Assembly: GCA_021845645.1 (NCBI GenBank)
Contig: JAJZVM010000045.1
Span: 1 to 27,825 of the forward strand
Reading direction: 5' to 3'
Source of the DNA: Bacillota bacterium
GTDB lineage: Bacteria; Bacillota_E; JAJZYS01; JAJYTV01
Length of the DNA: 27,825 bases
Part shown: positions 5,742-27,825 of the stretch, piece after piece
Position numbering within the stretch: the stretch's first letter is position 1
Layout: each line of letters begins with the position of its first letter
Translations under genes and position numbers: made by a program
The notes under the pieces: generated by a model
Database searches by the model: none
What the model was told of the DNA's origin: nothing
Seen by the model: only the letters and a program-made list of their open reading frames with translations

Positions 5742-5867
5742 GAAATGGTCTTGGGTCGCTGCCGCTGATGCGACGGCACCGAGACTGGGGCTCGAGCGCC
5801 AGGTGGACTGCCTTCTCTGCGCGCAGCAGCGTTGTGGCGTAGAGGTGTCCCGATGTCGGACTGCCTT

Positions 5868-6044
5868 GCCCAGACAGATCTCGGTGCAACCGACGACCAC
5901 GCCCTGCACCCCCTGCAGGGCGTGGTCGTCCATGATCCGCAGGAAGGCTGCGCGCGACTCGATCAAGCGGAGGCTGGCCGCCGCGAGCCCTTCGCGATCG
6001 AACAGCTGCTCCAGCGTGTAGATCGTGCCGAGCAGGGCCGGTCC
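5868..6044 (-). pseudogene. Remnant of an Asp/Glu/hydantoin racemase-family gene
   Basis: Minus-strand translation gives GPALLGTIYTLEQLFDREGL, then ESRAAFLRIMDDHALQGVQG and VVVGCTEICLG. The first part matches the LLGTxxTMEQxFY block of aspartate racemases. The second matches their C-terminal region around the catalytic Cys in GCTEI. In intact enzymes these blocks are separated by roughly 30 more residues. Those are missing here, and neither the N-terminal half nor a start codon can be found. I read this as a decayed, internally deleted racemase gene lying between two active transcription units. It explains much of the otherwise gene-free stretch 5742-6248. A chance resemblance is unlikely given two blocks in the right order, but this rests on recall of the family pattern only. 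Confidence 0.6.
5892..5930. repeat. Perfect 17-bp inverted repeat with 5-nt loop
   Basis: The left arm 5892-5908 (GACGACCACGCCCTGCA) and right arm 5914-5930 are perfect reverse complements around a CCCCC loop. It lies inside the racemase remnant and downstream of the kinase. No T-tract follows on the plus strand within 10 nt, so it is not a classic terminator. It could still stop or stabilise the upstream mRNA, or have arisen from a local inverted duplication within the decayed gene. Confidence 0.85.
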
Positions 6045-6240
6045 TGCCCAGGGGACCTTGGGCGTGCTGCCTTCACGCTTCGCGTTTCCCGGGCCCGGCC
6101 GCGGGCCGCGCATGGTGTCGAATTGCCGACAGCCCCTTGCGGCGGGGGTGTAAGAGAGTAAAACGACCGCAATCGACAGAGATCGACAGGAAAGCCAAAA
6201 GCAAGCGCGTTTGAAAACTACCTGGGTCAGCGGAAAAGGA

Positions 6241-6289
6241 TTGACAGAATGGTTGCAGAATGGCATACAGAATACAAAATACGGCATAC
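6241..6289 (+). promoter_or_regulatory. Candidate promoter with tandem GGCATAC repeats
   Basis: TTGACA at 6241-6246 is a perfect -35 hexamer. A weak -10 (CATACA or TACAGA) follows at 17-19 nt. GGCATAC occurs at 6262-6268 and again at 6283-6289, a 21-bp period that places both on the same helix face, as expected for a dimeric or tandem regulator. The A/T-rich stretch 6200-6290 stands out from the GC-rich surroundings. If this promoter is used, the cupin would start at GTG 6309 and not at ATG 6249. Confidence 0.4.
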
Positions 6290-6914
6290 CAAGGGGGCAA
6301 CGACCAGCGTGGCTGATACCTACGAGAACGACCCGTACAAAGACCATCCGGAAGACGACCCGCGTCGCCAAGGAAAGATGCACTATCACGAATACGAGGT
6401 GCGGCCGATCGAGGTGGCCCGCATTGTGCACCAGAACCCGGTGGGTGACCTCTTCGAGCTCAAGGAGCGCCACCACAAGGGCGCGGACGTCCAGCTGCCA
6501 TTGCGCACGATTCAATTGCACGTGTCGCAGCTGCTCGCCGGCGAGATGACGCGGATGCACAAGCACCACAACGAGGCTGCGATCTATGTCATCGAGGGGA
6601 AGGGATACTCCCTGGTCCAGGGCGTGAGATACGACTGGCAGCAGGGCGATTTCCTCTACATGCCGAGCATGACCTGGCACCAGCACTTCAACGAGGGGCC
6701 CGACCGAGCGGTCTATCTCGGCATCACCAACAAGCGGATGCTGGACTGGCTTGGCCTCGACCGCCGGGTGGAGGCGGGCATCAACATGACGGACGAGCAG
6801 GTGCAGAAGGAGATCGAGACGGTGCAGCCGTCGCCCTACTCGTGGTACAGCATCACACCCGAAGGCGGTGTGCGCTTCGGGCCGCCCGGCTTCATCAAGC
6901 ACGAAGGCGACTGA
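6249..6914 (+). CDS. Cupin-domain protein (gentisate dioxygenase-like fold)
   Basis: A 221-aa single-cupin protein. Cupin motif 1 is GEMTRMHKHHNEAAIYVIEG (about residues 98-117), with metal-binding His and Glu. Motif 2 is GDFLYMPSMTWHQHFNEG (133-150), with His143/145. Cupins of this type bind Fe, Mn or Ni and may be dioxygenases, isomerases or carboxylate-binding proteins; which one cannot be told here. Two starts are possible. ATG 6249 has AAAGGA 8 nt upstream. GTG 6309 (then MADTYENDPYKD..., 201 aa) has AGGGGG 11 nt upstream, and its N-terminus looks more natural. It heads a plus-strand run with TctA 46 nt downstream, so a role in metabolism of the carboxylate imported by TctACB is likely (inference). 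Confidence 0.82.
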   Translation: MVAEWHTEYKIRHTKGATTSVADTYENDPYKDHPEDDPRRQGKMHYHEYEVRPIEVARIVHQNPVGDLFELKERHHKGADVQLPLRTIQLHVSQLLAGEMTRMHKHHNEAAIYVIEGKGYSLVQGVRYDWQQGDFLYMPSMTWHQHFNEGPDRAVYLGITNKRMLDWLGLDRRVEAGINMTDEQVQKEIETVQPSPYSWYSITPEGGVRFGPPGFIKHEGD

Positions 6915-6960
6915 CCGGCACACTGAAGCCCCACGGGGCAGGATGACGAGGTAGCCGCCG

Positions 6961-8514
6961 ATGCTGCACGCCGCATGGCTCGGGTTCATGTCCCTCTGGG
7001 CGCCGATGTCGATCGCCATGATGGTCATCGGGGTGGTTGTCGGCTTCGTTTTCGGTGCCACGCCAGGACTTGGCGGCAACATGTACCTCGCCGTGCTGCT
7101 GCCGTTCGTGTACAAGCTGAGCCCTCCAGCGGCCTTCGCCTTGCTGCTGGGGGGCCATTCGGCCATCACGTTCGGCGGCGCGGCGAGCGCGATCCTGATC
7201 AACACCCCTGGCACAGGGGACTGCATCTCCACCACCTGGGACGGCTATCCGCTGTCTCAGCAAGGACACGCCGGACGGGCGATTGGCGCCGCGAGCACCG
7301 CTTCCGCTCTTGGCGGACTGTTCGGCGTCGCGGTGCTGATCGTTGTGATCCCGCTCGTGAGCCGCATCATCAGCGCTTTCGGCCCGCCCGAGATGCTGTC
7401 GATGGCCCTTGTCGGCATCGCCATGGTCGGGTTCATCTCGCAGGGCTCGTTGTCGAAGGGCCTGATCGCCGGCGGTCTCGGCCTGCTTCTGTCCTTCATC
7501 GGAACCGATCCGATCACAGGCGAGACGCGCTTCACGTTTGGCAGCCTGTTCCTGCAGGACGGACTCGATTTCGCGGTCGCCATCATCGGCCTCTTCGGCA
7601 TCGCCGGTGTCCTGGACCTCTTGATCAGCGGGCGGAAGTCGGTTGCGGAGACCGACGTCCCCTCGAGTGGCGACAGCACCCTGAGCGGCATCGGCGATGT
7701 GCTGCGAAACTGGCGGCTACTGCTGCAGAGCAGTTCGCTCGGGGCTCTGCTCGGCCCGATACCGGGAGTGGGCGGCAGCATCACGAACGTTATGGCGTAC
7801 GCCCTCGCCCAGCGCACGTCCAAAGTGGGCCACCTGTTCGGCACGGGCCGGATCGAGGGGGTCATCGCGCCGCAGAGCGCCGACAATTCGAAAGAAGCGG
7901 GCGCGATCATACCGACCGTCGCCTTGGGTATTCCCGGATCGAGCGCCATGGCGATCTTCCTCGGCGCCTTCTACATTCTCGGCCTGCAGCCTGGGCCGCA
8001 GATGCTGACCACCCACGCGGACATCACGTTCTCGCTTGTGTGGATCCTCGCGGTGGCCAACGTGCTGACCGGCATCCTGGCGCTCGCCGCGGGCGGTCAG
8101 CTGGTGCGCATCACGCGGATGCGCACGGCCTATCTCGCCACGGTGGTCCTGGTGATCGCCTTCGTCGGGGCGTACAGCCTGACCAACAGCTTCGACAGCG
8201 TCATCGCGGCCCTCGCGTTCGGTGTCGTCGGCGTCGTGATGAAGCGCTACGGCTTCTCCCGGCCAGCCCTCCTGATCGGGCTTCTCCTGGGATCCACGGC
8301 CGAGACCAACTTCATGGTCTCCTACCACGTGTGGGGCCTCGCGTTCCTGCTCAGACCGATCACCGTGATCATCCTCCTGGCGGGGATCGCGGGCCTGACG
8401 TACCCGACGCTCAAGAGCGCGGGCGGTCGATTGGTCGGCGCGGCGCGGCGCTCTTTAGGAGCCACGCGTGCAGTCGGTGCGACGGAAGGGAGTGACGACG
8501 GGGGATCGCCCTGA
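6961..8514 (+). CDS. tctA: Tripartite tricarboxylate transporter, large permease TctA
   Basis: The large membrane subunit of a TTT secondary carboxylate uptake system, 517 aa with about 11-12 hydrophobic segments. Signature regions are FGATPGLGGNMYLAVLLPF, GGHSAITFGGAASAILINTPG and the second-half repeat LLGPIPGVGGSITNVMAYALA with GIPGSSAMAIFLGAF. These two conserved loops are typical of TctA. ATG 6961 has GAGGT 8 nt upstream. It works with TctB and the periplasmic TctC encoded just downstream. The gene order A-C-B differs from the common C-B-A order. Family membership is certain; the substrate (citrate, tartrate, aromatic acid or other) is unknown. Confidence 0.95.
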   Translation: MLHAAWLGFMSLWAPMSIAMMVIGVVVGFVFGATPGLGGNMYLAVLLPFVYKLSPPAAFALLLGGHSAITFGGAASAILINTPGTGDCISTTWDGYPLSQQGHAGRAIGAASTASALGGLFGVAVLIVVIPLVSRIISAFGPPEMLSMALVGIAMVGFISQGSLSKGLIAGGLGLLLSFIGTDPITGETRFTFGSLFLQDGLDFAVAIIGLFGIAGVLDLLISGRKSVAETDVPSSGDSTLSGIGDVLRNWRLLLQSSSLGALLGPIPGVGGSITNVMAYALAQRTSKVGHLFGTGRIEGVIAPQSADNSKEAGAIIPTVALGIPGSSAMAIFLGAFYILGLQPGPQMLTTHADITFSLVWILAVANVLTGILALAAGGQLVRITRMRTAYLATVVLVIAFVGAYSLTNSFDSVIAALAFGVVGVVMKRYGFSRPALLIGLLLGSTAETNFMVSYHVWGLAFLLRPITVIILLAGIAGLTYPTLKSAGGRLVGAARRSLGATRAVGATEGSDDGGSP

Positions 8515-8610
8515 GCAAACGCTGCGTCACATGCGTCCTGTTCGTTGGCTGAAGAACTTCACGCAAGGGAGGGTAGCGACGCCGGGAAGATTCCGACGTC
8601 GTCGCACGAC

Positions 8611-9675
8611 ATGCGCATCGTCAGGAACGGACTCGGGCCTGCACTATCGGCGGTCGCGATCAGCGGACTCCTGCTTTCCACGGTGGCGCCGACAGCCTCC
8701 GCCGGGAAGAGGGAGAACCCTGCGGCGTTCTACAAGGGGAAGACCATCCAGTTCATCATCCCGCACGGAGTCGGGGGCGGCTTCGACTTCTACTCCCGCG
8801 AGCTCGCCCTGTACATGGCGAAGTACATGCCCGGCACCACCATCGTCCCGATCAACAAGCCGGGGGCCGGTGGCCTTACGGGCACGGACCTGATCGCGTC
8901 CTCGAAGCCGGACGGACTCACCATCGGCATCATCGACGTGACCGGCACCTTGACGGACCAGGCGCTTTCGCCCAAGACGGTCGGCTACAACGACATGACC
9001 CTAAGCTGGCTCGGACGCGTCAGCGCCGACACGCCCGTCATGGTCGTGAGCATGAACTCGCCCATCAAGACCATCGTCGACTGGCAGAAGTCCAGCAGCC
9101 CGGTATCGTTCTCCGTGAGCGGCGCGGGCAGCGACGACGACATCACGATCAACCTGATCGGGAAGCTGCTCGGCCTGCCGGTCGACACCGTTCCCGGCTT
9201 CTCTGGCACAAGCGCCACGGTCGCCGCCGTGATCAACGGCACGGTCATGGGCACCGAGACCACGTTCGGCAGCATCGCGCCGGAGATCAAGAGCCATGAG
9301 GTGCGGCCGCTGATGGTCGTCGGTATGGACCGCCGCTCGGAGATCCCAGGCGTGCCTACCGTCGCGCAGGACGCCTGGCTGATGGGCGCCAGCAAACAGG
9401 CCCAGAGCGAGGTCGCGGACTGGGCCATGATCCAGGGGCTCAACAGGGCGATCGCCGGGCCGGCGAGGATCCCATCCGACCGCCTCGCCTACCTGCGCAC
9501 GGCGATGCAGAAGGCGATGAAGGATCCCGGCTTCATCGCGACGATGAAGAAGGCCAACCGCGAGATCTCGTACCTGCCTGGGGCCACGGTCGGCAAGGAC
9601 GTCAGGCAGGCGCTCAAGGACATCAAGCCGCTCCTGCCGGTCTTGAAGAGCCTGCCCGGAGTGGGCGTGAAGTAG
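8611..9675 (+). CDS. tctC: TTT-family periplasmic substrate-binding protein TctC
   Basis: The extracytoplasmic solute receptor of the TTT system (Bug family), 354 aa. Starting at ATG 8611, the first ~31 residues form a Sec signal peptide: basic MRIVRNG, a hydrophobic core and cleavage near PTASA. The mature start FYKGKTIQFIIPHGVGGGFD and NKPGAGGLTGTDLIASSKPD are typical Bug motifs for the carboxylate-binding loop. The frame is open further upstream to a TTG at 8545, but that would bury the signal peptide. The ribosome site in front of 8611 is weak. There is no lipobox. It lies 96 nt after tctA and is followed by a strong hairpin before tctB. Confidence 0.92.
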   Translation: MRIVRNGLGPALSAVAISGLLLSTVAPTASAGKRENPAAFYKGKTIQFIIPHGVGGGFDFYSRELALYMAKYMPGTTIVPINKPGAGGLTGTDLIASSKPDGLTIGIIDVTGTLTDQALSPKTVGYNDMTLSWLGRVSADTPVMVVSMNSPIKTIVDWQKSSSPVSFSVSGAGSDDDITINLIGKLLGLPVDTVPGFSGTSATVAAVINGTVMGTETTFGSIAPEIKSHEVRPLMVVGMDRRSEIPGVPTVAQDAWLMGASKQAQSEVADWAMIQGLNRAIAGPARIPSDRLAYLRTAMQKAMKDPGFIATMKKANREISYLPGATVGKDVRQALKDIKPLLPVLKSLPGVGVK

Positions 9676-17891: not shown

Positions 17892-18188
17892 ACGGACATC
17901 GAGATCGTCTACTTTGACGGTTGCCCGAACTGGAAGCTGGCCCACGAGCGGGTGCTGATGGCTCTCAACGCGACAGGCCATGCCGACGCCAAGGTGCGAC
18001 TCCATCTCGTGGAGAACCCCAGCGAGGCACTGGAGGCTGGCATGCACGGATCGCCGACGATCCTCGTGGACGGTATGGACCCCTTCCCGAATGCGCCGGA
18101 TGCCATCTGGTCATGCCGCATCTACCGGGGCGATTCCGGCTTCGAGGGCGCCCCGAGCGTGGCGGCGCTGGCTGCGCTGCTGCGATAG
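17892..18188 (+). CDS. Thioredoxin-like fold protein (single-Cys, GCPNW motif)
   Basis: About 98 aa, reading TDIEIVYFDGCPNWKLAHER, then PSEALEAGMHGSPTILVDGM, then DPFPNAP, SCRIYR and a short C-terminal helix. This matches small thioredoxin-like proteins often seen near mercury-resistance and sulfur genes: a beta strand, a Cys turn and the cis-Pro strand GSPTILVDG. The redox motif is CPNW, so the second Cys of CXXC is missing, as is usual in this group. The reading frame opens after TGA 17868-17870 and contains no ATG, GTG or TTG before the conserved first strand. The ribosome site GGAGGT at 17877-17882 is 9 nt before ACG 17892, where ATG would be expected. A GTG at 17952 would remove the motif. 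Function unknown beyond fold. Confidence 0.65.
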   Translation, partial: TDIEIVYFDGCPNWKLAHERVLMALNATGHADAKVRLHLVENPSEALEAGMHGSPTILVDGMDPFPNAPDAIWSCRIYRGDSGFEGAPSVAALAALLR

Positions 18189-18563
18189 ATCAACGCAACA
18201 GGCGAAGGCATACGCGCTGGCCGCCGGAGAAAAGGCGGCGATGTGTGGCATACTGACCTATGCCACGTTCGTCCAGGCCGCCCTGCCGGATTGGCCCGCA
18301 TGGTCCGCCTCAACGCCCGACGTATCCGCCGCGACGGATGATCCTCGCGCGCAAAGTCCTCACGCTTCACCTGCTGGACAAGCCTTCGGCCGTGGGCCGT
18401 CTCTACATAAAGCACGCCGGCGTGCTACACTAGGTGAAGAGTTCGGTAACCACGGGGCGTGGACGATTTCGTCCATGCCCCTAATGTTTGGATTCGCAGC
18501 CTTGTCGGCAACAGTTCCACATGGACGGGACTCTAGCCGTACCCTAGAGGGGACGTGGTCGAG
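18189..18563. other. Gene-free region with palindrome, upstream of flavoprotein
   Basis: This 375-bp stretch has no convincing gene; open frames here have no recognisable protein character. It holds a perfect 16-bp palindrome AGCACGCCGGCGTGCT at 18411-18426. Complementary 8-mers CTTCACCT (18365-18372) and AGGTGAAG (18432-18439) flank it. TACACT at 18426-18431 could be a -10 element beside the palindrome. The arrangement suggests an operator-promoter for the flavoprotein gene, or a structured leader. Confidence 0.4.
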
Positions 18564-20048
18564 ATGCCGTACCTGCGGATTAGCATGGACAGAGTGGGCT
18601 GCACTGCCCCTTCCGCATCTGGGTGGCCAGCTATCATCCAGGGTGGAATGGGTGTTGCCGTTTCGCATTGGCCTCTCGCTCGCGCGGTAGCCTTGGCGGG
18701 ACAACTCGGGGTGGTGTCAGGAACCGGTATCGACACCGTCGTGGTGAGGCGCATGCAGGATGGCGACATCGGCGGGCACGTCCGCCGAGCCCTCGCAGCC
18801 AGCCCGTGGTCCGCGCTTGCCGAGCAGTTCGTGGCGCGTTACTTCTGCCCGGAGGGACGCGCAGAAGGTCAGCCCTACGCCAGACTGCCCATGTGGACGC
18901 TCAAGTCGAACCAGTGGCGCAAGGCGGTCGCGATGCTGTCGGGATACGTCGAGGTATGGCTGGCAAAGCATGGCCACAGGGGGCGTGTCGGGATCAACCT
19001 GCTGACCAAGGTCCCTCTGCCAAACCTTGCCATACTGTACGGCGCGATGCATGCCGGCGTCGATGTTGTGCTGATGGGAGCCGGAATCCCGCGGGACATC
19101 CCGGGAGCCCTCGACCGCATGGCGATGAATGAACCGGCAGCGCTGAAGATGGATGTCGCCGGTGCGCGTGGCGGGGACCCGGAGCAGTGGATGCGCTTTG
19201 AGCCAGCCGCCTTCGAGTCCTCCGCGCGGTATCCTTTGGCCCGTCCAGCGTTTTTCCCGATCGTGGCCGCGCACAGTCTGGCGAACATGATGGCCAAGAA
19301 GGCAAACGGCTCGATCCAGGGTTTCGTGATCGAGGGGCCGATAGCCGGCGGTCACAACGCTCCACCGCGCGGGCCGGAACATCTCGATGAGACAGGCCAG
19401 CCGGTCTATGGTGAGCGCGACGTCGTCGACCTTGACGAGGTTGCGAAGCTTGGCTATCCGTATTGGCTCGCCGGCGGGTTCGGCGTTCGCGGTGGCGTTG
19501 CGCTGGCACAGGAGATGGGCGCGGCGGGAGTTCAGGTAGGCACGCTCTTCGCATTCTGCGAGGAGTCCGGGTTGTCGGCCGATCTGCGCCGGCAAGTCAG
19601 ATCCAAGGTCAAAGAGGGAGAGATCTCCGTTCGCACCGACCCGCTCGCCTCGCCGACCGGATTTCCGTTCAAGGTCGTGGAGCTGGCGCAGACGCTCTCG
19701 CAAGCCGAAGTGTACACGGAGCGCCGCCGCGTTTGCGATTTAGGGTACCTGCGCGAGACGTACCGCCAGGAAAGTGGGCGTATCGGCTATCGCTGTCCAG
19801 CGGAGCCCGTCGCCGACTACGTGGCGAAGGGCGGAACCGCTGCGCAAACGGAAGGGCGCAAGTGCCTTTGCAACGGTCTGATGGCATCGGCAGGTGTTCC
19901 GCAGCGACAGAAGGACCAAACGCTGGAGCCACCGATCATCACGAGCGGCGACGAGATCCTGCGCATCCGCGAACTGCTCGGGGACCGTGACGCGTATTCG
20001 GCGCAGGATGTCATCGACTACCTCCTGGAACGACCGAGGGACGACTGA
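18564..20048 (+). CDS. Nitronate monooxygenase-like FMN oxidoreductase
   Basis: A 494-aa TIM-barrel flavoprotein of the 2-nitropropane dioxygenase/nitronate monooxygenase superfamily, also related to the PfaD-like enoyl reductases. Typical pieces are PAIIQGGMGVAVSHWPLARA at the N-terminus, GQLGVVSGTGID, VGINLLTKVPLPN, GFVIEGPIAGGHNAPPRG (FMN phosphate site and the His region), YWLAGGFGVRGGVALA and GAAGVQVGTLFAFCEESGL. It is longer than classical ~330-aa enzymes, with an extra C-terminal Cys-containing region (VCDLGYLRETY, RKCLCNGL). ATG 18564 lies about 10 nt after GAGGGGA; GTG 18555 and ATG 18585 are alternatives. Likely uses FMN with O2 or NAD(P)H; the substrate is unknown. Confidence 0.85.
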   Translation: MPYLRISMDRVGCTAPSASGWPAIIQGGMGVAVSHWPLARAVALAGQLGVVSGTGIDTVVVRRMQDGDIGGHVRRALAASPWSALAEQFVARYFCPEGRAEGQPYARLPMWTLKSNQWRKAVAMLSGYVEVWLAKHGHRGRVGINLLTKVPLPNLAILYGAMHAGVDVVLMGAGIPRDIPGALDRMAMNEPAALKMDVAGARGGDPEQWMRFEPAAFESSARYPLARPAFFPIVAAHSLANMMAKKANGSIQGFVIEGPIAGGHNAPPRGPEHLDETGQPVYGERDVVDLDEVAKLGYPYWLAGGFGVRGGVALAQEMGAAGVQVGTLFAFCEESGLSADLRRQVRSKVKEGEISVRTDPLASPTGFPFKVVELAQTLSQAEVYTERRRVCDLGYLRETYRQESGRIGYRCPAEPVADYVAKGGTAAQTEGRKCLCNGLMASAGVPQRQKDQTLEPPIITSGDEILRIRELLGDRDAYSAQDVIDYLLERPRDD

Positions 20049-20338
20049 ACTCGGTCCAAACCCCGCAGGCGAAGGACTGAGGGCAGTGCGCCTCTTCAGC
20101 GCGCCCGTGCACTGGCAGGAGGCGGCTGTCGCAGATTTGTGGGGCGCCGGGATGCGCGGCACAACGGCGCGGATCGCCCGGGCGCACGTCGCTGGAACAA
20201 TTTGCCTTCCGGTTTTACTTGCGTTGGCTCCCAACGACGTGGTACCATCAGTCTGTCGTGTAGGGACTGTTATGGATCCTCCAGCTGAAAAGCGGATGCC
20301 TCCGTGCACTTCCAGACGAACGTTCCTAAGAGGGGTGC
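20049..20338 (+). promoter_or_regulatory. Leader and promoter region of the RRM gene
   Basis: The 290 bp between the flavoprotein and the RRM gene hold no gene. A candidate promoter has TTGCGT at 20219-20224, an 18-nt spacer and TACCAT at 20243-20248. This would leave an untranslated leader of about 80 nt, a length common in cold-induced RNA-binding protein genes. AAGAGGGG just before ATG 20339 is the ribosome site. Confidence 0.4.
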
Positions 20339-20611
20339 ATGGAGTTGCAGAAGACCATCTACGTTGGTAACCTTCCGTGGTCGGTTACAAACGAGGACTT
20401 GGAGAAGACTGTTTCACAGTACGCTGAAGTCCTGACGGCTCGGATCGCCACCGACCGCGAGACCGGCCGCTCACGCGGGTTCGGTTTCGTTGAGGTTCCG
20501 GCTGACAAGGCCGAGGCCGTCATCGAGGCGCTAAACGGTTCGACTTGGGAGGACCGCCAGTTGACCGTCAACGAGGCGCGTCCGCGCGAAGAGCGCCCTC
20601 GTCGCTACTAA
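20339..20611 (+). CDS. Small RRM-domain RNA-binding protein
   Basis: A 90-aa protein made of one RNA recognition motif. RNP2 is IYVGNL (residues 7-12) and RNP1 is RGFGFVEV (46-53), with the expected aromatic residues for stacking on RNA bases. The short basic tail EARPREERPRRY matches bacterial single-RRM proteins of cyanobacterial Rbp type, which are often cold- or stress-induced and bind RNA in the cytoplasm. ATG 20339 follows AAGAGGGG. It is monocistronic: its own upstream region and a strong terminator 14 nt after the stop. Codon use is slightly less GC-rich than neighbours, as expected for a highly expressed gene. Confidence 0.95.
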   Translation: MELQKTIYVGNLPWSVTNEDLEKTVSQYAEVLTARIATDRETGRSRGFGFVEVPADKAEAVIEALNGSTWEDRQLTVNEARPREERPRRY

Positions 20612-20625
20612 GAACTAAGCCGGGA

Positions 20626-20667
20626 GAACCGGGATCGGCGTTTTCGCCGGTCCCGGTTCCTCGTTTT
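20626..20667 (+). terminator. Rho-independent terminator of the RRM gene
   Basis: A 15-bp stem (one T-G wobble), arms 20626-20640 and 20645-20659, with loop TTTT. It is followed by TCG and a T5 tract at 20663-20667. This is a textbook terminator 14 nt after the stop codon. Confidence 0.93.
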
Positions 20668-20901
20668 TCTGCGCTTTCGGGGTAGACATGGCGGGCGTGC
20701 GCTACCGGGCTGCGGCGCGCACGACAACTTGCCAAGCTGACCCTGACCTGGCCCGGTTGGGTCCTTTTTCGCCTGAACCTTCAATCGTGTATTGAAGCGC
20801 GACAGGTCATGGGTGTCGAATGCTGGTGGACCGCAACGTTGTATGGTGTACTAGACTCGGGTCATTCGACCGATGACCATGTCGAAAGTGTGGGTTAGCG
20901 C
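20668..20901 (+). other. Intergenic region before the DprE-like operon
   Basis: 234 bp without a gene. A 7-bp perfect hairpin CTTCAAT/ATTGAAG with loop CGTGT is at 20779-20797. A T5 run at 20765-20769 may be a minor second terminator. The relatively A/T-rich stretch near 20835-20865 (GTTGTATGGTGTACTAGACT) is the likeliest promoter zone for the following operon, but hexamers are not clear enough to assign. Confidence 0.35.
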
Positions 20902-22647
20902 TTGTCGTCTCACCGCGCAGGCTCCAGCCGCAGTATTGGCCCCGCGCGCAGGCGGCGGATCCGCCCGCTGCGCTTAATCGGGGTGGTTCTTGTTGCCTTG
21001 GCGATCGTCGCAGCGCTTACCGTGCACCCGACCCCGGCATTGCATGCGGTGCACCGGGCCGACCCGCGTCTCGCCGCCAGCGTCGCCAGATCGTTGCGAC
21101 CGCACCTTTCGGTGCTGCGGGATGCATCCGGGGCGCTCGACGTCTTCAGCCTCTCGCCTGGAGCCTGGCCGGATTCGGTCCTCGTGGACGGGTATCGGCC
21201 GGGGCAGGTTCCGCGGGTCTATCGTGCCGGACTTGCCTGGTCGGGCGGGGAACTGAGCGCCGCAAGCCTCGGCAAGCCACTGGCGAGTTCGATTGCGTCC
21301 GCGGGCGACTACGACCTGGGCTGCGCAGGAAGTTTCGTCTTCTACGCCACGGCGGTTTCCGGCCAGTTCCAAACGATCAGCGTCCTGCGCGACTCCCTGT
21401 CGCAACGCTGGCTCTTCGCTCTGCCTTCACCCGCAGCGAAGGTCCAACTGACGGAAGCGGGCGGCGTGCTCGGCGTCAGGTACCTCATCAGTGGTAGTTG
21501 GGGCAGCGCAAAGATCGCGCTCGCTTCCTCCGGACCGCATGTCGTCTCCGGCGGACTTGCCCGTGTCTCCACGGGGCAAAACCACAACTCCCTCTTCATC
21601 CAGGTCGTCGAAGGCGTGCGCCAATACCTCGGATCCGCGGTGGTCGCCACGGCCGAGAACGTCTTCTACCAGTTTTCGGACGCCTTGCAAAGGCTGTTCT
21701 ACCATGCTGCGGGTCTCAAGCCGCAGACACCGTCCATGGCGACATCCACCGGGCCGAAGCCGCGCATTGGCGGGGCGCAACTCGGAGACCTGCCGCACGA
21801 CATCGTGCCCTCCGGATGGCCGAAATCGCCAGGAGAAGGCGTGTGGACTCCGGTCGGTCCCGTGGTCGGCGGTGCCCCTGCGATGGAGGAGACGTTTCTC
21901 CATCCGGATCCGCAGCGCCCGTGGGCGACGGCGTACCTGGTCTGGATCAACCCCGCCGCTTTGCGCCTGCACTACGTGGCGGGCACCGAGGAGCCCACCT
22001 CCCTTTCGGGCATCCATGGAACCGGTCTCCTGCCGTCCGGTCCCGCAGCGGCATCCGTGGTTGCCGCCTTCAACTCCGGGTTCAAGAGCGACACCGTCTA
22101 CAATGGCCAGGAATTCAAGACAACGTTCGGCGCTATGGTGGACGGTGAGTTGTACTCGCCGCCCGTCAGAGGCATCGCAACCCTCGCGATCTACAAGAAC
22201 GGCCGCGTGGCGCTCGGAGCCTGGGGCACGCGGAGCGTCCCGCAGGCCGGGTTGCTGTCATACAGGCAGAACCTGCCCCTGATCGTCGAGAACGGAGAGC
22301 TCAACCCTCTGATCAACGATGCCAGTGCGTGGGGCATCGTGGTTGGGAACTCGACGTACGTCTGGCGCTCCGGCATCGGCATCACGCAGCGTGGCGATCT
22401 GGTCTACGTCGGGGGAGGGCCGCTTTCCGTCAGCACGCTTGCGCAGTCGCTGCAGGCGGCGGGCGCGGTGCGCGCCATGCAGCTCGACATCAACTCGTAT
22501 TGGGTCACGTTCAACTTCTACCACTGGGTGGGGAGCGGCAGTGCGGGATACCTGGCTGGGGAGAAGCTCGCCTCGGCCATGACCAGACCGGCTGATCGCT
22601 ATCTCTCCCCGGACACGAGGGACTTCTTCTACCTGACAAGGCCCTAG
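20902..22647 (+). CDS. Membrane-anchored phosphodiester glycosidase (NAGPA domain)
   Basis: A 581-aa protein. An Arg-rich N-terminus (RRRRIRPLR) precedes one hydrophobic helix (about residues 24-41), giving an uncleaved anchor or signal, so the rest is outside the cytoplasm. The C-terminal ~200 residues are the NAGPA/DUF2233 phosphodiester glycosidase fold: AAFNSGF near 388, TFGAMVDGELYSPP, IVENGELN, GITQRGDLVYVGGGPLS near 500 and AMQLDINSYW near 527. Relatives remove sugar-1-phosphate groups from phosphodiesters. The middle ~300 residues have no family I can name. The start is TTG 20902 directly after an in-frame TAG; its ribosome site is poor. It is 47 nt upstream of the DprE1-like gene and probably co-transcribed, pointing to a role in a surface glycan or its lipid carrier. 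Confidence 0.82.
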   Translation: MSSHRAGSSRSIGPARRRRIRPLRLIGVVLVALAIVAALTVHPTPALHAVHRADPRLAASVARSLRPHLSVLRDASGALDVFSLSPGAWPDSVLVDGYRPGQVPRVYRAGLAWSGGELSAASLGKPLASSIASAGDYDLGCAGSFVFYATAVSGQFQTISVLRDSLSQRWLFALPSPAAKVQLTEAGGVLGVRYLISGSWGSAKIALASSGPHVVSGGLARVSTGQNHNSLFIQVVEGVRQYLGSAVVATAENVFYQFSDALQRLFYHAAGLKPQTPSMATSTGPKPRIGGAQLGDLPHDIVPSGWPKSPGEGVWTPVGPVVGGAPAMEETFLHPDPQRPWATAYLVWINPAALRLHYVAGTEEPTSLSGIHGTGLLPSGPAAASVVAAFNSGFKSDTVYNGQEFKTTFGAMVDGELYSPPVRGIATLAIYKNGRVALGAWGTRSVPQAGLLSYRQNLPLIVENGELNPLINDASAWGIVVGNSTYVWRSGIGITQRGDLVYVGGGPLSVSTLAQSLQAAGAVRAMQLDINSYWVTFNFYHWVGSGSAGYLAGEKLASAMTRPADRYLSPDTRDFFYLTRP

Positions 22648-22693
22648 GGCCGCGGATCCGGGCGCGAACTACGCAAGACAGGTGGGCGGCTGG

Positions 22694-24028
22694 ATGGGCA
22701 AGCAGATCGAGGTCGCGGGCTGGGGCCATCAGATGCGCGTCGCTGCGGATGTCGAGCGCCCTGAGACGGTGCGCGCGCTCGAGTCCTCATGCCATGGGCA
22801 AGGCATTGCGCGTGGGCTTGGCCGCAGCTACGGCGATGCAGCGATCGCGCCGGAGCGGGTCTGGATGATGACGCGGCTAAACCGCATGCTGTCCTTTCGC
22901 GACGGTGTTCTGACGGCCGAGGCCGGTACAAGTCTTGGCGACATACTGCGCGTGTTTCTCCCCCGCGGCTACACACTTCCCGTCACGCCCGGCACGCAGT
23001 GGGTCACCCTGGGCGGCGCCGTCGCCGCGGACGTGCACGGGAAGAATCACCACACCGCAGGCACCTTCTCCCGGTACGTCGAGGAGATCACGCTCTGCAC
23101 GGCAGACGGCGAAATGCGCCGGATCGGTCCCGGGCGCGACCCGGATCTCTTCTGGGCCACGGTAGGAGGCATGGGGCTCACCGGTCTCATCCTGGAGGTC
23201 TCGCTGCGTTTGCAGGCGATCGAGACCGGTTACATCTCCGTTGACTACTTCCGAACGAGGGACCTGGAGGAGACGCTCAACTGGTTCTCCGTGCACGATG
23301 CGTCGTACCCCTTCACGGTGGCATGGCTGGACTGCCTGGCATCCGGACGATCGCTCGGGCGAGCGGTCTTGATGGGCGGGCGGCCGACCGAGCGCGCGGA
23401 ACTTTCGGGTCGCCAGCCGGCCTTCCCGATGCCGCACCGGACCCTCCGCATGCCGTTCTCGCTACCATCGGGCATGCTCAGCAGGAGCGTGGGCGTCGCC
23501 TTCAACGCCGCCTACTACGGTGTCCACCGGCCAGGCGCCCAGCAAATCGAGCCGTGGTGGAAGTTCTTCTATCCGCTCGACGTGGTGGACGACTGGCACC
23601 GGCTTTATGGGCGGCGGGGTTTCGCCCAGTACCAGGCGGTCTTCCCGGCTGAGGTCGGGGCGCAAGAGCTCGCCGCTTTGCTCGGGCGTATCCAGAATGC
23701 GCGCCACCCGAACTTCCTCGGGGTGCTCAAGCGGATGGGCCCCAGTTCCCCCGGCATGCTGTCGTTCCCGCGGGCTGGACTTACGCTTGCTCTGGACCTG
23801 CCCATGCAGGGAGAAGGCACGTCGCGGCTGTTCAGGGAGCTGTACGCGCAGACGGCGGATCTCGGTGGGCGCGCCTACCTCGCAAAGGACAGCTTTCTTA
23901 CGCCAGACCTCCTGCAGCGCATGTACCCGCGCCTTTCGGAATTTCGCGCGGTGAAGAAGCGGGTGGATCCCGCGGGGCGCTGGCGTTCCGCGCTTGCCTT
24001 GCGCCTCGGATTGGCAGGTGGATCGTGA
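22694..24028 (+). CDS. dprE1: DprE1-like FAD-dependent oxidase
   Basis: Resembles decaprenylphosphoryl-beta-D-ribose 2'-oxidase, which with DprE2 epimerises DPR to DPA, the arabinose donor. 444 aa; the Mycobacterium enzyme is 461 aa. FAD-domain motifs are ARGLGRSYGD (39-48), TPGTQWVTLGGAVAADVHGK (98-117) with HGKNHH (115-120), and FWATVGGMGLTGLI. The substrate domain has AYYGVH, FFYPLDVVDDW, FAQYQAVFP and YLAKDS with the catalytic-region Lys at about 398. The cysteine that benzothiazinones attack in mycobacteria (Cys387) aligns with Ala366 here (LTLALDLP in place of NICVDFP). ATG 22694 is preferred; GTG 22682 is possible. The stop overlaps the reductase start (TGATG). Confidence 0.88.
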   Translation: MGKQIEVAGWGHQMRVAADVERPETVRALESSCHGQGIARGLGRSYGDAAIAPERVWMMTRLNRMLSFRDGVLTAEAGTSLGDILRVFLPRGYTLPVTPGTQWVTLGGAVAADVHGKNHHTAGTFSRYVEEITLCTADGEMRRIGPGRDPDLFWATVGGMGLTGLILEVSLRLQAIETGYISVDYFRTRDLEETLNWFSVHDASYPFTVAWLDCLASGRSLGRAVLMGGRPTERAELSGRQPAFPMPHRTLRMPFSLPSGMLSRSVGVAFNAAYYGVHRPGAQQIEPWWKFFYPLDVVDDWHRLYGRRGFAQYQAVFPAEVGAQELAALLGRIQNARHPNFLGVLKRMGPSSPGMLSFPRAGLTLALDLPMQGEGTSRLFRELYAQTADLGGRAYLAKDSFLTPDLLQRMYPRLSEFRAVKKRVDPAGRWRSALALRLGLAGGS

Positions 24029-24756
24029 TGGCCAACGGCGTGCTGGTGCTCGGGGCCACGTCCACCATCGCCCGCGCGCTCTCGGCTCGCTGGGCACGCG
24101 ACGGCGTGCCTCTGCACTTAGTCGGGCGCGATACCCCGGAGCTTGAGCGCATTGCCCAAGACCTTCGGATCCGCTACGGCAGCGATGTTTCGGTGCTCGG
24201 ATGCGACATCGCGGCGGGCGACTTTCCGCAGGCAACCGTGACGGCGATGGGCCAGCATGCGCCACTGCGGGGCATCGTCTGGGCGTTTGGGACGATGGTC
24301 GCCGCGGCCGGTGCCGCCGACGCACAGAGCCTGCGGGCCGGCGCGTGGGTGAATTTCGGCGCGGCCCCGCCGTTGATCGAGGCACTTTTGCCCCTCGTTG
24401 ACCGCCAGGGTTTCATCGCGTTTCTTTCCTCGGTCGCGGGAGACCGCGGCAGGCAGTCCAACTACGTCTACGGCGCGGCGAAGGCGGCGCTTTCCGTCTA
24501 TGGGCTGGGCCTGCGCCACAGGCTTCGTGGCGCGGGACCCAGCGTGACAGTCCTAAAGCTCGGCGTCGTCGACACGCGGATGAGTTGGGGGATGGGGGTA
24601 CCCGGAGGCGCCGCGGACCCCGAGGCCGTCGCGGCTGAGGTGCAGCGGGCGATTGGGGCCGGTAAGGCAGTGGCCTACGTACCTCGCCGCTGGGCCCTGG
24701 TGATGGCGGTCATCCGCCATCTGCCGGAGCCGCTGTTCAATCTGCTTCGCATTTAA
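24028..24756 (+). CDS. dprE2: DprE2-like short-chain dehydrogenase/reductase
   Basis: A 242-aa SDR that likely reduces the 2'-keto intermediate made by the DprE1-like enzyme, using NAD(P)H. The nucleotide loop is VLGATSTIARALS (7-19), the GATSxIA form typical of DprE2 rather than GxxxGxG. The catalytic set is SSVAGDRGRQSNYVYGAAKA with Ser135, Tyr148 and Lys152; the SSVAGxRxRxSNxVYG string is characteristic of the DprE2 group. VVDTRMSWGM follows. A hydrophobic C-terminal helix (RWALVMAVIRHLPEPLFNLL) may contact the membrane or DprE1. ATG 24028 shares its A with the upstream TGA; GTG 24025 is an alternative. Tight coupling to the oxidase supports joint function. Confidence 0.88.
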   Translation: MANGVLVLGATSTIARALSARWARDGVPLHLVGRDTPELERIAQDLRIRYGSDVSVLGCDIAAGDFPQATVTAMGQHAPLRGIVWAFGTMVAAAGAADAQSLRAGAWVNFGAAPPLIEALLPLVDRQGFIAFLSSVAGDRGRQSNYVYGAAKAALSVYGLGLRHRLRGAGPSVTVLKLGVVDTRMSWGMGVPGGAADPEAVAAEVQRAIGAGKAVAYVPRRWALVMAVIRHLPEPLFNLLRI

Positions 24757-24780
24757 GGCCCTCGTCTGGAGGTTTCGCGG

Positions 24781-25704
24781 GTGGGCAATCAGGAGATGCC
24801 ACTGATGGAGGCGCCGGGGGAAGTCTCGAAGCTGCGTGCGCTGTGGCGGCTGATGCGACCCCGGCAGTGGCTGAAGAACCTGCTCGTTTTCGCCCCCCTC
24901 GTCTTCACGGAGAGTTTCCTGCGGCTGGCGGCCTGGCCGCCGGCCCTGATCGCGTTCGCCAGCTTCTGCCTGCTCTCGAGCACCGTGTATACGCTGAACG
25001 ACCTGCACGACGCTGCAGAGGACAGGCTCCACCCGAAGAAGCGCCACCGCCCGATCGCAAGCGGGCTCGTGGCGCCGACCAAGGCCACGGCGCTTGCCGC
25101 CGTGCTCGGGGTTCTTGGCCTGCTCCTGGCGGCGTCGGTCAACCCGCTGGTGGCCGTGATCGCCGTCGGGTTTCTCGTCGTCAACGCGCTCTACACGCTC
25201 GTTCTGCGCAGCCGGGTGCTCGTGGATGCCTTCGGCATCTCGGCTGGCTTCCTTCTGCGCGCTGCCGCAGGCGCGGCCGCCCTTCATGTCAGCATGTCCC
25301 CTTGGCTTTTCGTCCTCGTCTTGCTGCTCACGCTATTCCTGGCGCTCGGGAAGCGGCGCAGCGAACTGCGCGCACTGCAAGGTGCGACCGGCAGCCATCG
25401 GGGCGTGCTTGAACGCTATACGGCGACGCTTCTCGACCAACTGCTCGCCGTCACCGTGTCAAGCACGATCGCACTATATGCCGTATACAGCTTCTATCAA
25501 CCCATGCATGCCCACTCATTCATGCTGACGATACCATTCGTCGTCTACGGGCTGTTCCGCTACCTTTACCTGCTGGCGGCAAACGACAAGGTGGAGAATC
25601 CTGACGAGATGCTCGTTGCGGATGGCCCGACGCTGGCGAACCTGGGGCTGTGGGCGGTTTCGGTGGTCGCGCTGCTGCTCCTGAACCGGCAGGGAATCCT
25701 GTGA
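24781..25704 (+). CDS. UbiA-type decaprenyl-phosphate phosphoribosyltransferase-like protein
   Basis: A 307-aa polytopic prenyltransferase; the mycobacterial counterpart (UbiA/Rv3806c) is 302 aa. It would transfer phosphoribose from PRPP to polyprenyl phosphate, the first step toward DPR and DPA. Motifs: RLMRPRQWLKNLLVFAPL near the N-terminus, NDLHDAAEDRLHPKKRHRP from residue 73 with the Asp residues 74, 77 and 81 for Mg-PRPP binding, and YTLVLRSRVLVDAFGISAGF. A second acidic region includes LGKRRSEL. About eight helices follow. GTG 24781 has TGGAGGT with 7-nt spacing and is 24 nt after the reductase. The phosphatase that would remove the 5-phosphate is not in the window. Confidence 0.88.
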   Translation: MGNQEMPLMEAPGEVSKLRALWRLMRPRQWLKNLLVFAPLVFTESFLRLAAWPPALIAFASFCLLSSTVYTLNDLHDAAEDRLHPKKRHRPIASGLVAPTKATALAAVLGVLGLLLAASVNPLVAVIAVGFLVVNALYTLVLRSRVLVDAFGISAGFLLRAAAGAAALHVSMSPWLFVLVLLLTLFLALGKRRSELRALQGATGSHRGVLERYTATLLDQLLAVTVSSTIALYAVYSFYQPMHAHSFMLTIPFVVYGLFRYLYLLAANDKVENPDEMLVADGPTLANLGLWAVSVVALLLLNRQGIL

Positions 25705-25710
25705 GAGCCA

Positions 25711-25746
25711 TGGCCGCAGGGTACCGGAATCTCCGCCCTGCGGCCA
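25711..25746. terminator. Stem-loop after the UbiA-like gene
   Basis: TGGCCGCAGGG at 25711-25721 pairs perfectly with 25736-25746. A 4-bp inner stem (CGGA/TCCG) extends it past a 3-nt bulge. There is no T-tract, so it may be a Rho-linked or weak terminator marking the end of the operon. A second hairpin (GCCGGCA/TGCCGGC) at 25854-25874 lies near the end of the convergent gene. Confidence 0.5.
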
Positions 25747-25885
25747 AGAGCGCTGACGCACGGCGGTGCGGGCCGGACCCCCGACCTTCACAGCATGCCA
25801 GAAGCGGAGCGGAAGGGCCCAGGCACACGAAGCTTTTCTTTGCATCGCACCGCGCCGGCATGGCTTCTGCCGGCTGCAACAAGTC

Positions 25886-26764
25886 TCACCCCTGGTTCAG
25901 TGAGCCTTCATCCCCCTGCTCGGTCTCGCCCTGCACATCCGCTCGCGTAAGAGCGAGCCAGAGGACAATGATGGCGATGCTGACGGTAAGCCCGAGGGCG
26001 ACCCAACCCGAGCCCCAGCCCAGCCCACCGTAACTGACCGGCTTGCCGAATCCGTCGGCAAACGACGCACCGAGCGGCCGCGTAAGGACGTATGCCAACC
26101 AGAAGGTGAAGACTTCGTTCCAGTGCAGCATCCGGCGCCCGGCGATCGGCAGGATAAAGAGCAGCGCGAAGAGCAACAGCGAGCCAAAGTACCCCAATTG
26201 CAGGGTATAGGCCGTCAGGTCTCCGAGAGCGGTGCCCATGGCGAATGTCGCACACACCGTAGCCCAGTAGAAGGCCTCGCGGTGCGGCGTGTTGATGGTG
26301 TGGATCGAGAGCGTCGATTCGGTTCGACCCCATGTAAAGAACACCGCTCCCAGGATCAGGGCGAACAGAATGGACGACGCGACATACGGAACGCCGAGAA
26401 CGACATGGAGGACGTCCGCTGCCATGGTTCCGAACACACCCACCATGACGACGGCGAACCAGTAGGTCCAGGCAACATAGCGACCCATCCTGAATTGAAG
26501 AAAGAGTGCTGTGACAAAGACGACGAAACTGAGGATCACAGCGACATAAGGGTTGATCGCGTGGACCAAGTAATCCGACGTTGACTCGCCCATCGCGGTG
26601 GAAAGACCCTTGACTATCCAGAAGTAGACGGTGACTTCGGGTACCCGGAGCGAACGGGTTTGGCTGATCCACGAGCTACGTGGGCTTCGGCTGCTCCGGG
26701 GCTGCAGCTGGCGCTGTGCCCCGCGTTGTGCTCCGCCGTCGAAAGTGCGCCGAACTACAACCAC
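25886..26764 (-). CDS. COG4705-like integral membrane protein
   Basis: About 250 conserved residues beginning VPEVTVYFWIVKGLSTAMGE (near 26644), followed by TSDYLVH, INPYVAVILSFVVFVTALFL and HREAFYWATVCATFAMGTAL. LTRPLGASFADGFGKP comes next and GWVALGLTVSIAIIVLWLAL near the end. The internal repeat of ...TxGE.xxDxL / TxLGDLTAY / RPLGASFADG patterns matches the uncharacterised membrane-anchored family COG4705, with about eight helices. Function unknown. The frame is open to a GTG at 26764, but the first 40 residues are Arg/Ser-rich and unlike the family. No ATG, GTG or TTG lies between that GTG and the conserved start. It is convergent with the DprE-like operon. Confidence 0.75.
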   Translation of the reverse strand: MVVVRRTFDGGAQRGAQRQLQPRSSRSPRSSWISQTRSLRVPEVTVYFWIVKGLSTAMGESTSDYLVHAINPYVAVILSFVVFVTALFLQFRMGRYVAWTYWFAVVMVGVFGTMAADVLHVVLGVPYVASSILFALILGAVFFTWGRTESTLSIHTINTPHREAFYWATVCATFAMGTALGDLTAYTLQLGYFGSLLLFALLFILPIAGRRMLHWNEVFTFWLAYVLTRPLGASFADGFGKPVSYGGLGWGSGWVALGLTVSIAIIVLWLALTRADVQGETEQGDEGSLNQG

Positions 26765-27080: not shown

Positions 27081-27825
27081 TGGAGTGACCCCGCTTTAGT
27101 GGACAGGTCAGGGGCTTGGCTACGAAGCGCGTGATTGGCGATCGGTAACCGTAGTGACCCACCTCCTCTCGAACTCATCAGGGGTGAGCATGCCGAGGCT
27201 GGAGTGCAGCCGTCGGCGGTTGTAGAAGCCCTCGATGAACCAGAAGATCTCCGAGCGCAAGAGGGCTCTTGAGGGCCAGTGGCGCTGGCGATCGAGGAGT
27301 TCTGTCTGGAGCGTGGCCCAGAAGCTCTCCATCATCGCGTTGTCGTAGCAGTCGCCGATTGAGCCCATGGAGCCGACGAGGCCCGCTTCGCGGAGGCGCT
27401 CACCGAAGGCGATCGAGGTGTACTGTGCGCCGTGGTCGGAGTGGTGGATCGTCCCCGGCTCGGGCTTGCGGGTACGCATCGCCATGTTGACGGCGTCGAT
27501 CACGAGCTCCGTGCCGATCTGCTCACCCATGGCCCAGCCGACGATCCGACGGGAGAAGGCGTCCATGACCGTGGCGCAGTAGAGCCAGCCCTCCGCAGTC
27601 GGGTGCTGGGTGATGTCCGCGACCCAGAGGAGGTTCGGGGCCTCGGCGGTGAACTCGCGCTGCACCAGGTCCGGGGCGAGCGGATCCTTGGGGTTGCGAT
27701 GGGTGCAGCCAACCGGCCTGCGCCGGCTGACGCCTTGGATGCCAGCCTCGCGCATCAGGCGCGCCACACGTTTGCGTGAGCAGCGCACGCCGCGCCCAGA
27801 GCGGAGTTCGGCGTGTACGCGGGGG
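27081..27825 (-). mobile_element. IS3-family insertion sequence, one end, cut by window edge
   Basis: Contains the transposase described separately. About 10-35 nt beyond its stop is TGGAGTGACCCCGCTTTAGT (from 27081) followed by GGACAGGTCAGG, which resembles IS3-type terminal repeats (TG...GACCCC...GGACA). The exact end is uncertain because the other terminal repeat and the first transposase frame lie beyond 27825. No target duplication can be examined. Confidence 0.7.
27120..27825 (-). CDS. IS3-family transposase OrfB (partial, DDE integrase)
   Basis: The catalytic OrfB frame, open through the window edge, so its N-terminus is missing. It begins in the window with an HTH-like stretch (HAELRSGRGVRCSRKRVARL). 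The DDE core follows: PNLLWVADITQHPT (first Asp), HHSDHGAQYTS (second Asp) and NAMMESFWATLQTELL (Glu), then FIEGFYNRRRLHSSLGMLTP at the C-terminus. These are diagnostic of IS3 OrfB. The usual OrfB length is ~280-300 aa; about 235 are visible. In intact elements it is made as an OrfAB fusion by -1 frameshifting; OrfA would lie to the right, outside the window. Confidence 0.95.
   Translation of the reverse strand, partial: PRVHAELRSGRGVRCSRKRVARLMREAGIQGVSRRRPVGCTHRNPKDPLAPDLVQREFTAEAPNLLWVADITQHPTAEGWLYCATVMDAFSRRIVGWAMGEQIGTELVIDAVNMAMRTRKPEPGTIHHSDHGAQYTSIAFGERLREAGLVGSMGSIGDCYDNAMMESFWATLQTELLDRQRHWPSRALLRSEIFWFIEGFYNRRRLHSSLGMLTPDEFERRWVTTVTDRQSRAS

Follow-up and report, generated by a model that had tools for sequence, protein, structure and literature searches.

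The operon and its gene products

The DNA analysed here, called the window throughout, is a stretch of 27,825 nucleotides from a Bacillota bacterium (contig JAJZVM010000045.1, assembly GCA_021845645.1). It contains a compact operon of four plus-strand genes at 20902-25704, which encode an NAGPA-fold protein, a DprE1-like oxidase, a DprE2-like reductase and a polyprenyl-phosphate 5-phosphoribosyltransferase (PPPRS). This gene neighbourhood exceeds chance, since it recurs across phyla. The features of the operon are as follows.

20902-22647, plus strand: NAGPA-fold protein of the divergent 'LDIN' clade (TTG start, 581 aa), with an anchor, a partial propeller-like region and, at the C-terminus, a phosphodiester-glycosidase domain
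20965-21018, plus strand: predicted membrane-anchor helix, residues 22-39 (structure model and hydrophobic sequence), following an Arg-rich N-terminus
21055-21555, plus strand: N-terminal antiparallel beta region, residues 52-218, like part of a beta-propeller
21787-22644, plus strand: NAGPA catalytic-type domain, residues 296-581
22483-22494, plus strand: L-D-I-N motif, residues 528-531, replacing the canonical N-L-D-G-G-[GS]-S
22682-24028, plus strand: DprE1-like polyprenylphosphoryl-ribose 2'-oxidase (FAD), 448 aa (Pfam, NCBIfam and PDB matches)
24025-24756, plus strand: DprE2-like 2'-keto reductase of the short-chain dehydrogenase/reductase (SDR) type, 243 aa (Pfam, NCBIfam and PDB matches; YxxxK motif, YGAAK)
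24781-25704, plus strand: PPPRS, or decaprenylphosphoryl-phosphoribose (DPPR) synthase, of the UbiA superfamily, 307 aa (NF008977, 8j8j/8j8k, invariant residues)

A preliminary description of this DNA had reported four adjacent plus-strand genes with gaps of 46 nt, a 1-nt overlap and 24 nt, and we confirmed this spacing with ATG starts. The first gap is 46 nt when DprE1 begins at ATG 22694 and 34 nt with GTG 22682; DprE1 and DprE2 overlap by 1 nt when DprE2 begins at ATG 24028 and by 4 nt with GTG 24025; DprE2 and PPPRS are separated by 24 nt. Pfam assigned FAD_binding_4 and ALO domains to gene 2, adh_short to gene 3 and UbiA to gene 4. The best NCBIfam model for gene 2 was DprE1 (NF053785) with 420.9 bits, below the equivalog cut-off of 500 and 365 bits ahead of the runner-up at 56; the best PDB match was also a DprE1 (E 2.7e-85). 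When aligned to the solved DprE1 4aut, K121 (HGKN) and K402 (AKD), lysines which we take to have an active-site role, were invariant in 17/17 sequences. The Cys in the WNVCVDFP segment of 4aut, the benzothiazinone target, aligns with Ala in the window protein. Gene 3 scored higher with another SDR model (PRK07102, 199.7 bits, cut-off 267) than with DprE2 (NF053786, 128.9 bits, cut-off 250), so its assignment leans on its position after gene 2; DprE2 was the sole match below 1e-10 in the PDB search (E 2.4e-19). Genes 2 and 3 probably belong to the wider DprE1/DprE2 families and rank below certified equivalogs. Gene 4 passed the NCBIfam model of decaprenyl-phosphate phosphoribosyltransferase (NF008977; 248.5 vs 234 bits), and its best solved structure was that enzyme (8j8j, E 9.2e-34). 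Its motif NDxxD...DRxHPxKRxRPIA contains N73, D74, D77, D81, K87 and R90, all invariant in 17/17 sequences. The DprE1, DprE2 and UbiA assignments made in the preliminary description are thus supported by NCBIfam and PDB matches, although the oxidase and the SDR stay under their equivalog cut-offs.

The first protein of the operon matched PF09992 (NAGPA) with 32.3 bits, above the gathering score of 25. Some close relatives fell below threshold or gave no match (G004 and the DprE-linked gene of G002 and G003; genomes, contigs and loci are cited by G, C and L numbers). A fold search with the structure model revealed an NAGPA fold with 13-17% identity to solved NAGPA-fold structures across the aligned part; searching solved structures by sequence alone, with either the protein or its profile as query, brought no meaningful match. 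The N-terminal part yielded propeller matches at background level only. Most actinobacterial relatives, ∼340-460 aa long, lack this beta region. Judging from the predicted helix, the C-terminal part is expected to lie outside the membrane. The window protein has LDIN in place of the canonical NLDGG[GS]S; the canonical motif was seen in paralogues at L069 and L065 and in solved vertebrate chains. D529, I530 and N531 of LDIN were present in 94/94 aligned relatives. N391, R489 and D529, the Asn, Arg and Asp that align with canonical NAGPA motifs, were likewise invariant in 94/94 clade members, a pattern that fits a retained active site. Judged by the names of the solved vertebrate enzymes matched by fold, the known reaction of the family is N-acetylglucosamine (GlcNAc)-1-phosphodiester cleavage.

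The protein may instead have ceased to be a sugar-phosphate enzyme and serve in binding, as a scaffold or in other chemistry, or the gene linkage may reflect shared regulation of wall genes without a common pathway. The replaced motif, the low identity to solved structures and the weak or absent PF09992 match in some members lend this some weight; it is nonetheless improbable given the invariant Asn, Arg and Asp and a linkage that persists through differing gene orders, divergent and collinear. In Acididesulfobacillus acetoxydans (L069, 4646-8981) a split of the NAGPA gene is apparent: between its 226 aa N-terminal-like piece and its 322 aa catalytic domain lie a DruA-domain gene and an IS66 transposase.

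Recurrence of the NAGPA gene with PPPRS and DprE genes

The NAGPA protein was found in 8 of 61 relatives: six members of one genus, G007 from a second genus of the same family, and the more distant G031 of the same class. Strong DprE1 matches (E<1e-100) occurred in nine relatives, namely these eight and G008, and PPPRS-type UbiA (E<1e-50) in the nine plus G026, G048 and G055. NAGPA adjoins DprE1 in all eight genomes or, in G031, PPPRS followed by DprE1. Bacillota metagenome-assembled genomes (MAGs) at L060-L063 carry the same gene set, with the L062 contig ending within DprE1. We then scanned genome contigs with a profile of the NAGPA alignment, which matched at least 592 stretches, and kept the best 80 loci; gene borders in the compared loci are approximate, as given by a rough home-made open reading frame caller based on codon usage. 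Among these best 80, DprE1 lay within 5 kb in 28 and PPPRS without DprE1 in six more, which bears out the conserved association of the glycosidase with dprE1/dprE2/ubiA that the preliminary description had proposed to check. Another 23 had neither partner despite at least 3 kb seen on both sides, and 23 were on contigs too short to judge. The linkage was found in three phyla (Bacillota, Actinomycetota and Chloroflexota), and the genes follow at least four different orders, both divergent and collinear. The order NAGPA-DprE1-DprE2-UbiA characterises a Bacillota family (f1); NAGPA-UbiA-DprE1-DprE2 occurs in G031 and in Acidimicrobiaceae (L108, L120); UbiA-DprE1-DprE2 is divergent from NAGPA in many Solirubrobacterales; and UbiA-x-DprE1-DprE2-NAGPA is found in Desulfosporosinus (L066). 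Ktedonobacterales loci L077 and L088 have NAGPA-UbiA alone, with DprE1 elsewhere in the genome of L077.

On a tree of 94 NAGPA domains (98 rows less the duplicates L142, L144, L147 and L148), the DprE1 label changed 13 times vs 27.9 for shuffled labels, and the linkage was placed across Bacillota, Ktedonobacteria, Acidimicrobiia and Solirubrobacterales. Among the 23 genomes whose NAGPA loci are unlinked, 18 have a strong DprE1 match (E<1e-90) elsewhere; six of the 18 (G065, G069, G070, G071, G081 and G085) have another NAGPA gene at the DprE1 cluster. For a census of co-occurrence, 150 genomes were drawn evenly, with completeness of at least 80 requested, from the class of the Solirubrobacterales MAG G069, which was included; we take this class to be Thermoleophilia. 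At most 9 (NAGPA), 11 (DprE1) and 15 (PPPRS) candidates were scored per genome, and the resulting counts of 17, 12 and 42 genomes, respectively, may be too low. NAGPA and DprE1 co-occurred in eight genomes (Fisher p 1.8e-6, or 1.1e-5 without G069; kinship ignored), in 8/8 cases on one contig with gaps below 1.7 kb. NAGPA and PPPRS co-occurred in 12 genomes (p 1.3e-4, or 3.3e-4 without G069; kinship ignored), and in every one of them the gap measured 77-2213 bp. No DprE1 match was found in four of these genomes (G134, G146, G170 and G213), and NAGPA sits near PPPRS there as well. The steadier partner of NAGPA is therefore PPPRS, and the DprE1/DprE2 epimerase is optional beside the NAGPA-PPPRS pair. 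Of the partnership originally described, the tie of the glycosidase to the set stands, with PPPRS describing its partner better than the DprE1/DprE2 pair does. Absence of the glycosidase from the clusters of relatives, named earlier as a counter-sign, was mostly not seen; it was limited to G008 (one of nine) and to 4 of the 12 DprE1 genomes of the class sample (G131, G169, G182 and G202). As these four and 30 of the 42 PPPRS genomes lack NAGPA, the pathway can do without this protein.

The steady tie to the donor synthase, even where DprE1 is missing, bears on a product-level alternative, in which NAGPA would be a wall-glycan hydrolase: by cleaving a sugar-1-phosphodiester of the completed polymer, such as a GlcNAc-1-phosphate link, it would release or edit the pentofuranose glycan. 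Wall glycopolymers are tied to peptidoglycan by a GlcNAc-1-phosphate linkage unit, and cleavage of a GlcNAc-1-phosphodiester is the known reaction of the family. A second NAGPA-type protein with canonical NLDGG[GS]S lies 3-7 kb from DprE2 in three related Bacillota (L065, 10634-11608; L066, 14709-15674; L069, 10235-11209), which shows that the surroundings of the cluster can hold NAGPA proteins of different types. In addition, a GH172/DUF2961 gene adjoins one NAGPA-free DprE cluster (L162 of G131), and this family includes D-arabinofuranosidases according to the part of the source available to us (PMC10115798). We regard such trimming as a serious though unlikely alternative, because a step at the level of the donor fits the PPPRS tie better; moreover, the LDIN clade lacks the canonical motif, and in G003 and G031 the genes that match PF09992 strongly are on contigs other than that of the DprE cluster. 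The L162 cluster (4283-8039) is flanked by the GH172/DUF2961 gene and by a weak match to the WsfD glycan transferase.

Further arrangements were noted among the compared loci. At L097 (Conexibacter sp. DBS9H8, 2632-9077) one UbiA-DprE1-DprE2 set is flanked on both sides by different NAGPA genes, and L074 likewise has two NAGPA genes. L205, L206 and L208, where no DprE1 was found, share a DUF362 protein next to PPPRS and NAGPA, possibly an alternative modification enzyme. Two genes of ∼713-715 aa enclose UbiA-DprE1-DprE2 at L170 and L179; the flanking gene scanned at L170 matches sucrose-phosphate synthase/phosphatase-type domains.

The genome nearest to the window, G001, shares 100% of sampled words with it and is 99% complete. 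It contains two operon sites, a window-type copy on contig C68 and a resident site on C46. The C68 copy has its nearest counterpart in G007, a member of another genus, with DprE1 80% identical vs ∼65-67% within its own genus. The C46 site has flanks syntenic with the operon of the genus and a second NAGPA frame that is still open. What remains there of DprE1 and DprE2 are stubs of residues 2-58 (weak, E 7e-4) and 215-240 (E ∼1e-5), respectively, and the UbiA gene has lost about residues 146-246 by internal deletion. This decaying operon lies at about 9500-12100 of L141 (G001:C46:8001-28000). The simplest reading is that the whole operon, glycosidase included, was acquired from a source outside the genus, and that the resident operon decayed in the meantime.

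Transferase, flippase and phosphatase genes

Pfam searches found no 5'-phosphatase, flippase or glycosyltransferase within the four-gene operon. The preliminary description had suggested looking in the genome for arabinosyltransferases of the glycosyltransferase C (GT-C) type; G001 gave no match to the four GT-C families searched, Emb (PF04602), AftA (PF12250), PMT_2 (PF13231) and GT87 (PF09594). To call the set 'complete' was therefore an overstatement. The control, Corynebacterium glutamicum, was positive for all four families and had no PF09992 match. Across related genomes Emb was found in 0/14 and AftA in 0/11, with the control positive in both searches.

Flippase-like genes were seen at several loci. 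L066 reads PPPRS, flippase-like TIGR00374, DprE1, DprE2, NAGPA. At L205 and L206 the order is flippase-like (PF03706), PPPRS, DUF362, NAGPA, with no DprE1 found and the flippase-like gene of L206 cut by the contig end; a TIGR00374/PF03706 protein also lies within 4 kb at L132 (= L181). In the genus operons L143-L146 and L141, a haloacid dehalogenase (HAD)-family phosphatase of 163-175 aa overlaps or abuts UbiA (e.g. L145, 4352-4879). By its family it is a candidate 5'-phosphatase, and it was not seen beside the window operon.

We also counted proteins with multiple transmembrane (TM) segments around the clusters. The 40 NAGPA-bearing rows represent 38 distinct clusters (L074/L186 and L132/L181 are pairs), and the count omits the duplicates named above as well as the DprE1-free NAGPA loci L109, L134, L093, L092, L075 and L079. 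A protein with at least 7 TM segments lay within 4 kb in 12/38 NAGPA-bearing vs 7/19 NAGPA-free clusters. After classification with Pfam (all) and NCBIfam (some), GT-C-like or unclassified proteins were left in 2/38 (L103, L120) vs 4/19 (L162, L163, L164, L172). As a sign that NAGPA replaces a GT-C enzyme, these counts are a hint only.

One further feature of the window deserves mention in this context.

15114/15252-16856, plus strand: polytopic protein, 534-580 aa, ∼15 hydrophobic stretches

This gene immediately follows one of PrsW type. It is located 4 kb upstream of the operon, just beyond the 4-kb limit of the above count. The protein had no Pfam match and no solved relative; a fold search with its low-confidence model (pLDDT 66) gave no PDB match at E<0.001. 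Its 14 homologues in the protein database, itself not counted, have no precomputed Pfam domain. Among 208 loci, it occurs near the cassette only in the window's own copy, L140.

A proposed step on the lipid-linked pentofuranose

The absence of a GT-C gene from the operon and of the four GT-C families from G001, together with the flippase-like genes of L066, L205 and L206, suggests NAGPA for the terminal slot of the pathway, and the pairing of a secreted enzyme with lipid-sugar genes across three phyla suggests that it works on a lipid-linked sugar. From the gene identities, the fold and the PPPRS linkage we infer a substrate, a topology, a flipping step and a reaction: outside the membrane, NAGPA would break the sugar-phosphate bond of a lipid-linked pentofuranose, by transfer or by hydrolysis. 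We give this proposal a probability of roughly 0.4. The operon would make a polyprenyl-phosphate pentofuranose that is then spent outside the membrane. A phosphatase encoded outside the operon would strip the 5'-phosphate, and DprE1 and DprE2, going by their family membership, would invert C2 to give the D-arabinofuranosyl lipid. Once flipped across the membrane, the lipid-linked pentofuranose would meet the anchored NAGPA-fold protein, which may attack the anomeric sugar-phosphodiester, the bond type of its fold family, here as sugar-1-phosphate-polyprenol. In the leading version, NAGPA would pass the pentofuranose to a surface acceptor, taking the place of a GT-C enzyme and freeing the carrier; in the second, it would hydrolyse the lipid-linked sugar and likewise free the carrier. 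Taken singly, transfer from the lipid carrier to a surface acceptor seems rather unlikely, and hydrolysis of the lipid-linked pentofuranose is itself improbable. It is similarly doubtful, though conceivable, that the LDIN-clade proteins form a new class of polyprenyl-phosphate pentofuranosyltransferases, with a soluble domain, a single anchor and no GT-C architecture, that use D-ribo- or D-arabinofuranose and accompany PPPRS in Bacillota, Actinomycetota and Chloroflexota.

Should hydrolysis be the sole function, NAGPA would be a safety valve that clears lipid-linked ribose or arabinose piling up outside and frees polyprenyl phosphate, with a GT-C transferase located elsewhere. We consider this improbable, and its share is counted within the proposal above. 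Without regulation, a dedicated hydrolase produced alongside the synthase would be futile, G001 has none of the four GT-C families searched, and C. glutamicum, which has a DprE-type pathway, gave no PF09992 match. Hydrolysis is the known chemistry of the fold, and the PMT_2 matches of related genomes and the unclassified polytopic protein could supply the transferase. A release enzyme would also be useful, as a block of the pathway in Corynebacterineae is lethal through halted decaprenyl-phosphate recycling, according to the portion of the report available to us (PMC3937683).

Several observations weigh against placing NAGPA on the donor lipid. The characterised NAGPA-fold enzymes are, to our knowledge, hydrolases. 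PMT_2 was matched in 10 of the 11 genomes searched (6 above cut-off), G001 being the exception, and GT87 in 3 of 11 (2 above cut-off). At L207, PPPRS-NAGPA has as neighbours a protein that matches PMT_2 only weakly (E 2.8e-4, below the cut-off) and another multi-TM protein; a YfhO-type protein lies ∼2 kb off at L120 and an unclassified 8-TM protein at L103. The multi-TM count fails to separate NAGPA-bearing from NAGPA-free clusters clearly. The polytopic protein of the window is a possible transferase; it and the canonical NAGPA near the cluster in the three Bacillota slightly reduced our confidence in a donor-level step. The distribution is also imperfect. PPPRS occurs without a match to window-type NAGPA in G026, G048 and G055, and G008 has DprE1-DprE2-UbiA without NAGPA. 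Five of the 23 genomes behind unlinked loci have no strong DprE1, 5 of the 17 class-sample genomes with NAGPA have neither DprE1 nor PPPRS, and most PPPRS genomes of that sample, as noted, lack NAGPA.

A related pathway has been described for extracytoplasmic pentofuranosylation, in which PPPRS makes lipid-linked ribose that may be modified by epimerases, is exported by a flippase and is then used by a GT-C enzyme; in Citrobacter youngae O1/O2 this comprises PPPRS, a MATE flippase and a GT136 GT-C transferase, with epimerase or DprE1/DprE2 variants (PMC11127046, as far as accessible to us). The terms NAGPA, glycosidase and hydrolase are absent from its main text. The systems compared here resemble that one in the PPPRS entry step, the optional DprE1/DprE2 and, at L066, L205 and L206, the flippase-like gene. 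The window operon differs in having no recognised GT-C or flippase gene and, instead, an extracytoplasmic NAGPA-fold protein. With the mycobacterial pathway to decaprenylphosphoryl arabinose (DPA; Rv3806c, Rv3807c, DprE1, DprE2, Emb/Aft) it shares a homologous synthase, oxidase and reductase; unlike in that pathway, Emb and AftA are missing from the related genomes searched and NAGPA is added. The LDIN-clade protein also departs from the NAGPA/mannose-6-phosphate uncovering enzyme and from the DUF2233 protein BACOVA_00430 in its motif, its extra N-terminal propeller-like part and its PPPRS/DprE neighbourhood. A literature search, largely without subscription papers, found no paper on a bacterial pathway that connects the NAGPA family with DprE1, with arabinofuranose or with prenyl phosphates, in agreement with the earlier remark that no role of such a glycosidase with this set is established. 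Two papers treat other NAGPA-domain proteins and, in the parts accessible to us, have no bearing on the question (PMC11488536, PMC9862828). Rv3796, considered as a mycobacterial NAGPA beside the emb genes, was dropped, as it is listed as a type III sulfatase in PMC3675115 and C. glutamicum has no PF09992 match. Overall, the interpretation given in the preliminary description is partly supported, and the trimming, editing or recycling that it ascribed to the glycosidase is possible.

If the proposal is correct, there would be a second way to spend or recycle lipid-linked pentofuranose, vs the multi-spanning GT-C ending of the systems in the accessible text of PMC11127046. D-arabinose or ribose surface glycans would then be expected also in acidophilic Bacillota, soil Actinomycetota and Ktedonobacteria. 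An uncharacterised NAGPA clade would gain a function, and in the transfer version its proteins would be founding members of a glycosyltransferase family on a hydrolase fold. Since DprE1 and DprE2 are mycobacterial drug targets, an enzyme that consumes the lipid they produce would be of interest as a reagent.

A search of window positions 18000-26000 against PLSDB, in near mode only, gave no match, so a plasmid origin is unsupported. An integrase-core (rve/HTH_21) transposase gene is located at 27120-27824, ∼1.4 kb past the operon and near the right end of the window, and a gene for a DUF347 membrane protein sits between the two.

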